Part shown: positions 44,892 to 50,545 of the stretch, piece after piece
Numbering within the stretch: position 1 is the first letter of the stretch
Layout of the letters: every line of letters starts with the position of its first letter
Assembly (NCBI RefSeq): GCF_022834715.1
Contig: NZ_BQKC01000001.1
Span: 780,501-844,500 of the forward strand
Reading direction: 5' to 3'
Source of the DNA: Granulimonas faecalis
GTDB lineage: Bacteria > Actinomycetota > Coriobacteriia > Coriobacteriales > Atopobiaceae
Length of the DNA stretch: 64,000 nt
The notes under the pieces: model-generated
The model's database searches: none
Seen by the model: only the letters and a program-made list of their open reading frames with translations
Told to the model about the DNA's origin: nothing
Translations under genes and position numbers: made by a program

Positions 44892-44925
44892 TTGCGGACC
44901 AGTTTGCGGACCATCTTGCGGACCA
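44892..44925 (+). repeat. Left arm-type repeats of the element
   Basis: TTGCGGACCA at 44892, 44904 and 44916: three copies with exact 12-bp period, ending 10 bases before the integrase start. A matching triplet lies near the right end. Likely integrase arm-binding sites, possibly also an integrase operator. Confidence 0.8.
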
Positions 44926-44935
44926 GGGGGTTGCC

Positions 44936-46150
44936 ATGAAGTACCAGAGCGCGTTTCTGAAGGACAGGAAGGGGCGCAAGGGATGGACTGGCTATCTGAA
45001 GTTCAAGGACGGGGATGGCCGGTGGCGCGAGTGCTCCCGGTCCCTCAAGGCCGCCACGAAGACCGAGGCACGTCGCGAGCTGGCATCGTGGAGGGCGGAG
45101 ATGGAGGATGCGGCCGAGCGCGAGGCCGAGGCCCGTACAGACGCGCTCGGGACTCGCGCAGAGGTTCCCGACTACGTGGCGGGCATGGTTGACCGCCTGG
45201 AGGCTTCGGGGGCCATAGAGCCCTCGACGGCGAGCGGCTACCGCACGACCGTCAACCACATACGACGCCGGTTCACGGGCGTGACTGTGGCCGACCTCAC
45301 GGCGGCTGAGGTTCAGGCGTGGGAGGCCGACTTGACGGCGAGCGGCCTCGGCTCCTCGACCGTGGGCAAGTGCCACAGGCTCCTCAAACAAGCCATGAAG
45401 GAGGCGTGCGCCCTCGACCTAATCAAAAGGAACCCCCTCGACGCGGTGAGGCCGCCCAAGAGGCGGCCGGTGCACGAGGGAATCAACGCCCTGGACCTCG
45501 ACGGGCGCACGAGGCTCCTCGACGCCCTGGACGCCATGGAGCTTACGCCCGTGACGGTGGGGGCCCGCGTGGCCCTCTACACGGGGCTCAGGCGCGGCGA
45601 GGTGTGCGGCCTCAGGTGGGCCGACATCGACCCCGAGGCGGGGGTGCTCTGGGTAAGGCGTTCCATAGGCAAGGGCGGCTACGTGAAGGATCCCAAGACG
45701 GGGAAGGGGCGCGACGTGGCGCTCCCGCCGAGCCTCGCGGCGGCGCTGGCCGACTGGAGAGCGTTCATGGAGGAGGCCTACAGGGCCGCGGGGGCCGTGC
45801 TCCCACGGACGGCCTATGTGCTCGGGTACGGGGACCGGTTCATGAGCCCCGAGCTCCTCGGGAAGCAGTGGGCGACCCTTGCGGGGGCCCTGGGCATCCG
45901 GGGCACCGAGGGGCGCATACCGACGTTCCACGACCTCAGGCATACATGGGCGACGCTTTACCTTGCGGCCGGCGGGGACGTGAAGACGGCCGCGAGCAAC
46001 CTTGGCCATGCGGATGTGTCAATGACCCTCAACACGTACGCAAGCGCCGACCCGGATGCCAAGAGGCGGGCGGCCGTGCTCGTGGAGGGCGCCATGAGGG
46101 CCCCCGAGGGCGCGGCTGTGCCATTCAGGGCGAGGGGGGAGGCCGTATGA
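44936..46150 (+). CDS. int: Site-specific tyrosine integrase
   Basis: A 404-residue recombinase that would catalyse integration at tRNA-Pro and take part in excision. Residues 1-70 form an arm-binding-type N-terminal domain (GWTGYLKFKDGDGRWRE), followed by a SAM-like core-binding domain at about 80-170. The catalytic domain has ALYTGLRRGEVCGLRW (Arg), FHDLRHTWATL (His-x-x-Arg) and LGHADVSMTLNTYASAD (His and Tyr nucleophile). It adjoins attL and the arm repeats, and reads inward. Gene and site organisation agree. Confidence 0.95.
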   Translation: MKYQSAFLKDRKGRKGWTGYLKFKDGDGRWRECSRSLKAATKTEARRELASWRAEMEDAAEREAEARTDALGTRAEVPDYVAGMVDRLEASGAIEPSTASGYRTTVNHIRRRFTGVTVADLTAAEVQAWEADLTASGLGSSTVGKCHRLLKQAMKEACALDLIKRNPLDAVRPPKRRPVHEGINALDLDGRTRLLDALDAMELTPVTVGARVALYTGLRRGEVCGLRWADIDPEAGVLWVRRSIGKGGYVKDPKTGKGRDVALPPSLAAALADWRAFMEEAYRAAGAVLPRTAYVLGYGDRFMSPELLGKQWATLAGALGIRGTEGRIPTFHDLRHTWATLYLAAGGDVKTAASNLGHADVSMTLNTYASADPDAKRRAAVLVEGAMRAPEGAAVPFRARGEAV

Positions 46151-46174
46151 GGGCGATACCCGGCGCAATCTCGT

Positions 46175-46231
46175 ATAACGTACATTATGTAAAGCTGGAA
46201 GTGTGTTTTTCGACGCTGTTTGTCGACAAAC
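46175..46231. promoter_or_regulatory. Two palindromes between integrase and next gene
   Basis: ATAACGTACATTAT at 46175-46188 (imperfect, centred on GTAC) and GTTTGTCGACAAAC at 46218-46231 (perfect 14 bp). They lie in an AT-richer gap just before the next open frame and look like regulator-binding sites. No recognisable repressor gene is present in the element. Confidence 0.5.
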
Positions 46232-46256
46232 GACCCGGTGAAGGCCGTTTTTCATC

Positions 46257-46946
46257 ATGAGCGGCGATGTGCTCAGCACGGGCGGTGACCCTCGTTGCCA
46301 CGTCTTGGGCGTGCTGAACAGGGCCGCTGACAGTTGCGGGTGGCTAGGAGTCGAAGGCATCGAATCTCTTGCGGGGTTCCTTGTGGGAACCGATGGAGAG
46401 AGGCACGAGAGAAAGCCCGGAACTATGGCCAACCCTCCAGACCTCGATTGGGGAGAAAGCCCGTTGGGGGAGGTTGTTTTCGGCGATGGCCGGCACGACC
46501 CCCGGCGCATGGAGTGGTGCGAGGTGTCGAAGCCGTGGGGGTTCGGAACTATGGCGGGGCTCAGAGAGATTGGAGTGACCCCGGACCACAGGCAGAACCC
46601 CGGACGCATGGGAGCCGAGGAGGTGCGCCATATCCTAGCGGCGGTATGCGCCAGGGCCGACCAGGCGGGGGACCTCGACGGGTTCGACCGTTGGCTAGAG
46701 GGCCGCATCAGGCGGCCGTCTCCTTGGTTCGTGGGAACTTCGGAGGAGGCGGAGTATGAGGCCTTGGTAGAGCAAGCCGAGGCATGCCTGGGGGCCGAGG
46801 GCTTGCGGCGGCTGGTCGAATACGCGCGGCTCCTCACGTTGGACCCCGAGCTGGTTCGGGATGGCGCGGACCCTGAACAGCTGGGGGCCGTGAGGGAGGG
46901 GGTTCTTACGGACCGCTATCGGGCGGTGTCACCGGCCGTTCGTTAG
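46257..46946 (+). CDS. Hypothetical protein of the integrative element
   Basis: A 229-residue open frame. I do not recognise the family. The first half (to about residue 115) is glycine-rich, low in predicted structure and contains imperfect DNA repeats (GGAACTATGG at 46419 and 46546). The second half, from MGAEEVRHILAAVCARADQ onward, is helical and acidic with LRRLVEYARLLTLDPELV near the end. The start is doubtful: no ribosome site precedes ATG 46257, and ATG 46608 would give only the helical part. Could be a regulator given the palindromes upstream. Confidence 0.5.
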   Translation: MSGDVLSTGGDPRCHVLGVLNRAADSCGWLGVEGIESLAGFLVGTDGERHERKPGTMANPPDLDWGESPLGEVVFGDGRHDPRRMEWCEVSKPWGFGTMAGLREIGVTPDHRQNPGRMGAEEVRHILAAVCARADQAGDLDGFDRWLEGRIRRPSPWFVGTSEEAEYEALVEQAEACLGAEGLRRLVEYARLLTLDPELVRDGADPEQLGAVREGVLTDRYRAVSPAVR

Positions 46947-47055
46947 CTTGTGGTGTCCTTGTGGAGACGGCAAAGGGAGCCTCTCAAGGCAAATAGGCCC
47001 TCAGCGTTCCCCGACAAACCCCAGCAGACTACGAGGAGTGACAACCCCCGGAATA

Positions 47056-47097
47056 ATATGCCCCGAGACCCCGAAAAAGGGGCTTCGGGGCATATTT
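47056..47097 (+). terminator. Terminator-like hairpin inside the element
   Basis: ATATGCCCCGA and CCCC pair with GGGG and TCGGGGCATAT around GAAAAA. It separates the first two element genes from the downstream replication module. Confidence 0.7.
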
Positions 47098-49391: not shown

Positions 49392-49754
49392 ATGCCGAGT
49401 GGAGACAGGACCCCGAAGGGGAGGCGCGACGCGCTCATGTTGGCCATGCTCGGGGGCGCGAGCGTGGCCGAGGCGGCCGCCGAGGCCGGGATACCGGGGC
49501 GCACTGCGCGGGCCATAGCGGCCGACGACGGTTTCAGGGCCGAGCTGGGGGCCATGAGGGCGCGGGTGCTCGACGCGGCCGGAGCCGAGGTGGCCGAGGA
49601 CCTGGCCCAGGGCGCGCGGGAGGCGGTGGCCGTGCTCAGGGCCTACGCGGCGGGCGGCTACTTCGCCACGGATGCGACCCGCATACGGGCCGCCGAGGCC
49701 CTTTGCCGGGCGGCCACGGCGGCGGGCGTGGACCCGTTCGCCAAGGCGCCCTAG
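49392..49754 (+). CDS. Small helix-turn-helix protein, possibly small-terminase-like
   Basis: 120 residues. RRDALMLAMLGGASVAEAAAEAGIPGRTARAIAADDGFRAEL (read in segments) is an N-terminal helix-turn-helix with the layout seen in phage small-terminase subunits and related transposase-like HTH proteins. It is followed by a long helical part with VAEDLAQGAREAVAVLRAYA. No large terminase is present. In phage satellites a lone TerS redirects helper packaging; that reading is speculative here. AAGGTGGGGACG precedes ATG 49392. Confidence 0.6.
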   Translation: MPSGDRTPKGRRDALMLAMLGGASVAEAAAEAGIPGRTARAIAADDGFRAELGAMRARVLDAAGAEVAEDLAQGAREAVAVLRAYAAGGYFATDATRIRAAEALCRAATAAGVDPFAKAP

Positions 49755-49891
49755 GGGCCGCGCGGGGGCCCGGCGCGCCCCGGGAGGCAATCGGAGGGCC
49801 CGGGTGCCCGTGGCGCGCCTCTCAGGGGCGCTCTGGGGACGCCCAGGGGCATCCACGGGGACGGCGGCCGCCCGGTGCGGTACCCTCTGAA

Positions 49892-49930
49892 CTAGCCAAC
49901 GTTCCTGTAAACAACGACCATGAAAGGACA
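49892..49930 (+). promoter_or_regulatory. Upstream region of the last element gene, repeated at 50417
   Basis: CTAGCCAACGTTCC, then ACAACGAC and TGAAAGGA, reappear as CTAGCCAACGTCCC, ACAACGAC and TGAAGGA at 50417-50447. Probably a duplicated promoter/ribosome-site segment; the second copy leads into no long gene. Confidence 0.45.
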
Positions 49931-49935
49931 ATCCC

Positions 49936-50292
49936 ATGACAACAGAGACTGGAGCGGCCGTGCCGAGGGGCGCGGGCATCGGCGTGGCCTACCGCGACCT
50001 CAGGGCCGGGGCGGCCGGGGCCATTGCTGGGGCGCTGGACGTGCTGGACGGCGTGGCCGCGAGGGGCGGCGTGTGCACGGCCGAGGGCCTGAACCTGGCG
50101 GCCCTGGCGGTGGAGAGGGCCAAGGTGGTCCACGAGGCGACCGACTGGGAGGCCCACGAGGCGGAGACGGAGGCCCTGGGCACGCTCTGCCGCATCATGG
50201 AGGACGCGAGCCCGGGGCGGCTCATGGTGGCCCCCGGGGAGCTGGGGGCGCTCAGGGCCTGTGTGGCGCGGGCGCTGGCGGCCGCATCGTAG
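49936..50292 (+). CDS. Hypothetical protein of the element
   Basis: 118 residues, helical and acidic, family not recognised. A good ribosome site (GAAAGGA) lies eight bases before the ATG. No HTH or membrane segment. Last gene before the right attachment site and followed by a terminator. Confidence 0.65.
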   Translation: MTTETGAAVPRGAGIGVAYRDLRAGAAGAIAGALDVLDGVAARGGVCTAEGLNLAALAVERAKVVHEATDWEAHEAETEALGTLCRIMEDASPGRLMVAPGELGALRACVARALAAAS

Positions 50293-50322
50293 GCGAGGAC
50301 AGGCACGGAAGGCGTTGGCACT

Positions 50323-50353
50323 GGGGCCCGGGCACAAAAGCCCGGGCCCCTTC
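50323..50353 (+). terminator. Terminator at the right end of the element
   Basis: GGGGCCCGGGC pairs with GCCCGGGCCCC around ACAAAA, followed by TTCT. Confidence 0.8.
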
Positions 50354-50512
50354 TCGTGGGCGCTCGATGGGGGCCCGGAAACACGGCGGGGCCTGGCCGG
50401 TTTCCCGACCAGACCCCTAGCCAACGTCCCTCACAACGACGTGAAGGAACGGCCCCACTGTACCCCTCTGGGTGGCCCCCGTGGGCTCCCGGCGCCGCAT
50501 CCCGGCCCAAGT

Positions 50513-50545
50513 TTGCGGACCATCTTGCGGACCGTTTGCGGACCA
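50513..50545 (+). repeat. Right arm-type repeats of the element
   Basis: TTGCGGACCA at 50513 and 50536 and TTGCGGACCG at 50525, spaced 12 and 11 bp, 45 bases inside attR. Same sequence and direction as the left triplet at 44892. Confidence 0.8.

Follow-up and report, generated by a model that had tools for sequence, protein, structure and literature searches.

The P′ arm sites of phage lambda are closely spaced. In the attP regions of lambda and of mycobacteriophage L5/Cluster K, short repeats lie on both sides of the core and are read by the N-terminal domain of the integrase. For Cluster K mycobacteriophages, it has been noted that arm sites differ with the integrase N-terminus, and phage Pixie of this cluster has directly oriented arm sites, a pair flanking the core on one side and three on the other (PMC3203893). 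The attP regions of Oenococcus oeni prophages with IntF or IntB have 10-bp direct repeats on both arms; different repeat sets were attributed to different N-termini of the integrases, which are otherwise 92% identical (PMC8074189). The arm-binding domains described for IntTn916 and related subgroups have a topology of three strands and one helix (PMC8138268). In the tRNA-inserted KplE1 prophage, the promoter of intS overlaps attL and arm sites. For int genes of this type, self-repression was shown or predicted, and it is known to act from attL in tRNA-linked int genes of E. coli (PMC2951348).

Here, we describe repeat arrays at both ends of an element in Granulimonas faecalis, located in a stretch of 64,000 nt (the window), and compare them with the arrays of related elements. 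As in lambda and L5/Cluster K, short repeats flank the core and are predicted to be read by the N-terminal domain (N-domain) of the integrase, but there are usually three per arm, mostly in direct orientation and with an 11/12-bp beat, and both motif and N-domain differ. In the Oenococcus oeni system, both arms likewise have direct repeats, and these vary with the N-terminus of the integrase. This system departs from the present one in its copy number (two and four on the arms), its host and its N-domain sequences, and comprises a handful of phages as against dozens of elements here. The IntTn916 subgroup (Tn916, Tn1549) shares the N-terminal three strands and helix, and Tn1549 Int is the nearest solved relative, by sequence and by fold. 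However, the N-domain studied here is too divergent for the Pfam arm-domain models, and the targets of the elements are tRNA genes, with cores of about 45 bp. Since N-terminus-dependent arm sites have been noted in Cluster K and Oenococcus, the arrays in the window belong to a known type. What is new is the scale, with dozens of specificities in one architecture.

Repeat arrays at the two ends of the element

The element has a size of about 5.85 kb and is inserted at a tRNA-Pro gene. It is bounded by a 45-bp direct repeat, and both arrays are located just inside this repeat (Table 1).

Table 1. Features of the G. faecalis element, in positions of the window.
Feature	Position	Strand	Details and evidence
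attL core	44740-44784		45-bp duplicate of the tRNA-Pro 3′ part; 45/45 match to 50590-50634
Possible int promoter	44832-44861	+	TTGAAT-18-TAGAGT, weak match; promoter scan, unreported by a stricter scan
Left arm array	44892-44925	+	Three TTGCGGACCA, 12-bp period; exact motif matching, genome-wide pattern search, shuffling
Tyrosine integrase (int)	44936-46150	+	404 aa; Pfam PF13102 and PF00589, PHROG 1, AlphaFold2 models
Excisionase-like HTH protein, probable recombination directionality factor (RDF)	47188-47397	+	TIGR01764 'excise' above cut-off, HTH_17
DnaB-like ATPase	48350-49273		Profile matches
Right arm array	50513-50545	+	TTGCGGACCA, TTGCGGACCG, TTGCGGACCA at 12 and 11 bp; exact motif matching
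Terminator-like hairpin	50553-50582	-	With T-run, placed to end the tRNA-Pro transcript; hairpin scan
attR core	50590-50634		Inside the intact tRNA-Pro gene (50590-50666, minus strand)

An earlier note on this DNA had described a short repeat as occurring three times at an exact 12-bp period inside attL. We reproduced this array, with copies of TTGCGGACCA starting at 44892, 44904, and 44916. For the three copies described inside attR, we found the 9-mer TTGCGGACC at 50513, 50525, and 50536; over the full TTGCGGACCA, the middle copy (TTGCGGACCG) has one mismatch, its last base being G instead of A, so that the right triplet is exact for the 9-mer only. All six copies are on the plus strand, which bears out the single direction claimed for both arrays. 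Also as claimed, the left array abuts the integrase gene: its last copy ends 10 nt before the ATG (44936), and the gap contains a Shine-Dalgarno-like AGGGGG. No further exact copy of TTGCGGACCA was found within the window. In the 2.23-Mb genome, the paired pattern TTGCGGACCANNTTGCGGACC matched exactly at these two ends only, all other matches having 3 mismatches, and shuffling the 150-bp leader 20,000 times never gave an exact 9-mer triplet at 10-13 bp spacing. The longest match between left and right ends was 24-27 nt. The repeat observation at both ends of the element is thus confirmed.

The spacer of 107 bp between attL core and left array contains the heptamer GTACCGA twice (44801-44807 and 44873-44879), out of five occurrences on both strands of the window. 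As the arm motif TTGGTACCGA found in the two nearest relatives (L058 and L169) includes this heptamer, the copies may be remnants of a former arm specificity, a post hoc reading of what is possibly chance.

Apart from the genes listed in Table 1, a possible initiator and small unknown proteins are encoded between the cores. Three copies of AAAGGGTKCTTGAACCGAG, spaced by 33 and 23 bp, form an iteron-like cluster at 48188-48270, between the initiator-like and DnaB-like genes, which is a possible replication origin. A 36-nt leader-like segment (CTAGCCAACGT...) at 49892-49927, before a small gene at 49936, occurs again near the right end (50417-50452) with 72% identity. A hairpin similar to the terminator-like one (AGGTCAG...CTGACCTG) was seen at the same place in the right ends of many relatives, as if each element supplied a new terminator to the tRNA gene it entered.

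The integrase and its N-terminal domain

The integrase consists of an N-terminal three-stranded sheet with a helix (residues 1-60), a SAM-like core-binding domain, and a catalytic domain that matches Pfam PF00589. Six residues, R219, K254, H332, R335, H358, and Y368, were invariant or nearly so in 30 aligned integrases; these columns we take to be the catalytic R-K-H-R-H-Y set of tyrosine recombinases, all members of which are present. AlphaFold2 predicted a strand-strand-strand-helix fold for residues 1-61, both for the N-domain alone and for the full protein (block pLDDT of 90-96 for residues 1-60 in the full-length model). None of the Pfam arm-domain models matched the N-domain, a profile search of solved structures with this domain returned nothing, and Foldseek with the isolated domain gave no significant match. 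The arm domain of the HPI integrase (3jtz), which ranked among the top structural matches, aligned with it over 54 residues (Z = 4.9, rmsd 2.9), tied with unrelated folds.

Arrays in related elements

Relatives were drawn from searches of 120 and 395 whole genomes, which contained many related integrases (roughly 35-60% identity); among viral and genome contig collections, only distant relatives were found, mostly via the catalytic domain. The curated set comprised 80 loci from 63 genomes, with motifs partly chosen by eye. In almost every relative, a short repeat, usually in three copies, was located directly upstream of the integrase start. Its sequence varies by element (TTGGTACCGA, TTTGGTGCA, TGGGTGAACA, TTTGTGGCCA, ATTGCGCA, TTTTGCGGC, and others), amounting to 43 motif types among 61 non-redundant N-domains. 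Left arms contained three copies in 57 of the 80 loci and four in 13, and 86% of the spacings were 10-13 bp, with 11 and 12 bp being the commonest. Three sites at such a short period, regarded as unusual in the earlier note, are therefore the rule in these elements, and the arrays in the window, spaced 12/12 and 12/11, depart only slightly from the common 11/12 pattern. The median distance was 21 bp from the end of the left array to the int start and 115 bp from the core to the first copy, the latter clustering tightly at 114-117 (19 of 37 within 112-119). In an exact-pattern search of 140 genomes of the same family, the motif of the window was found in its own genome only; because every relative has a motif of its own in this position, this absence of exact copies elsewhere is no refutation of an integrase site.

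The two arms commonly had the same repeat. Of 39 elements with a duplicated core that were tested automatically, 36 showed the left-arm motif again just inside the far core, with three or more copies in 31. A both-arm test that scores every shared 8-mer instead of the curated motif gave agreement in 35 of 39, compared with at most 11 upon random pairing of left and right arms (permutation p about 1e-5). Eight further elements (about 29-50 kb) were resolved with longer pieces, and the arms matched in all of them, two being inverted. Including these and L122, whose arms share AGGGCAC/AGGGCGC, 45 of 47 resolved elements have the same element-specific repeat in both arms. The both-arm test, in which all shared 8-mers are scored, is our most robust result.

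The two exceptions have different triplets in their arms, with only a TGGT-like part in common: L196 (TGGTGTAC vs TGGTAACC) and L077 (TTGGTGCA vs AGTACCAA). They are possibly hybrids or tandem neighbours. In L125, L085, and L063, all or some of the right-arm sites are inverted with respect to the left arm. Given these cases (L063, L085, and the L124/L125 type), direct orientation is common, not universal. At L080, a second triplet (GCGGCCTA, three copies) was located just outside attL, about 320 bp upstream of the integrase match (oriented); it probably represents the right arm of an adjacent element that occupies the same tRNA gene, which would make this a tandem array.

Co-variation of repeat sequence and integrase domains

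The earlier note had proposed looking for repeats that co-vary with the integrase N-terminal domain in related elements, and such co-variation was found. Across the 80 elements, with the other two domains allowed for, N-domain identity was correlated with motif similarity (partial correlation 0.22, permutation p = 0.001); the contribution of the core-binding domain was small (0.09, p = 0.04), and there was none from the catalytic domain (0.02, p = 0.32). All p-values given here cover loci related by descent and are optimistic for that reason, and the by-eye choice of motifs could inflate some of the motif agreement. Among 66 pairs with catalytic domains more than 70% identical, rho was 0.74 for the N-domain, 0.22 for the core-binding domain, and 0.24 for the catalytic domain. 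All pairs with N-domains more than 80% identical had their motif in common.

Individual elements illustrate this dependence in both directions. In a natural swap, L124/L125 carry GTGTCCT and L126-L128 carry CACGTACT; between these groups, identity is 97-100% in the core-binding domain and 95-98% in the catalytic domain, but 67-70% in the N-domain, and L124 and L126 have a tRNA core in common. Comparable switches were observed for L076/L080 and L091/L092. Conversely, the motif is shared (i) by L180 and L200, with N-domains 64% and catalytic domains 39% identical; and (ii) by L116 and L203, with catalytic domains 46% identical. Six different motifs are used with one group of similar tRNA cores.

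In a column-wise test of the N-domain, position 22 on strand 2 alone was significant after correction (family-wise p = 0.01). It differed in all four motif-switch pairs examined and was unchanged in the same-motif pair, while co-variation of other single residues was weak. Position 22 as a specificity residue is a lead, not a proof. On a wider reading, to which we give clearly less than even chances, this integrase clade would possess a fast-diversifying arm-recognition code: N-domain and both arrays would change as a module while core-binding domain, catalytic domain, and tRNA target stay constant, residue 22 (K22 here) would be a main specificity position, and residues 31-33 on strand 3 would be further candidates. 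With such a module changing over a constant tRNA target, the arm specificities of elements in competition for a single tRNA site would stay separate.

Function of the arrays

Both triplets are almost certainly the arm-type (P and P′) sites of the element's own tyrosine integrase, with a probability of roughly 0.93. The earlier note had read them in this way, and both the N-domain co-variation and the symmetry of the two arms in the resolved elements support it. Repeated short sites flank the core inside the element; this is typical attP arm architecture. Residues 1-60, the three-stranded-sheet domain, would read TTGCGGACC, and the core-binding and catalytic domains would act on the 45-bp tRNA-Pro core. 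In the excised circle, the right array would be followed by about 45 bp, the core, about 107 bp, the left array, and int. We infer that the integrase binds the arrays and bridges arm and core: its protomers would form an intasome for integration in this way, and excision would use the same bridging plus the excisionase-like protein.

This protein is itself a candidate for occupying the triplets, as RDFs often bind, within att regions, direct repeats spaced by one helical turn; RDF sites of this form are described for Apl of phage 186 (PMC7498355). However, in the 46 elements with both proteins, the motif followed the N-domain (partial rho = 0.30, permutation p = 0.0005) and showed no significant co-variation with the excisionase (0.09, p = 0.09). 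The motif was kept in L058/L169 and L073/L200 despite excisionases that are only 48% and 31% identical, and differed in L092/L097 with excisionases 72% identical. We thus consider excisionase sites improbable.

Even less probable is that the left array serves mainly as an int operator, with its use in recombination secondary or absent. The array does lie between the possible promoter and the int start, and many relatives have sigma70-like -10 boxes clustered 13-16 bp ahead of the first left copy. Against this, in 45 of 47 elements the motif is also present at the far end, where any int promoter is several kb away, and an operator role is compatible with arm sites, not an alternative to them. 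It is scarcely credible that iterons, or some other signal for replication or packaging, account for the repeats at the ends. In favour of this reading, a DnaB-like ATPase and a possible initiator are encoded by the element, and origins can consist of short direct repeats. However, the motifs co-vary with the integrase N-domain and adjoin the two att cores of elements that range from about 4 to 50 kb, and the replication region has an iteron-like cluster of its own (48188-48270).

If the triplets are arm sites, bound integrase should also repress int, because the left array is placed between the probable promoter and the int start codon; integrase on the left array would block its own transcript. 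Autoregulation of int via the left array, which had been suggested in the earlier note, is plausible in view of the clustered -10 boxes of the relatives and of the self-repression known from attL, and we rate its chances as about even. Compared with KplE1, the array in this family apparently lies downstream of the promoter rather than over it, and self-repression is deduced here.

Significance

Rules for arm-site sequences are known for few integrases. The present set offers 61 non-redundant N-domains with 43 motifs, together with natural swaps, and may suffice to learn how a small beta-sheet domain recognizes DNA and how specificity is switched in mobile elements. Element ends can also be located in a simple way, via a triplet with 11-12 bp spacing upstream of int and the matching triplet at the far att site. 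The arrays in the window are of value mainly because they give access to a natural library of arm-recognition specificities.
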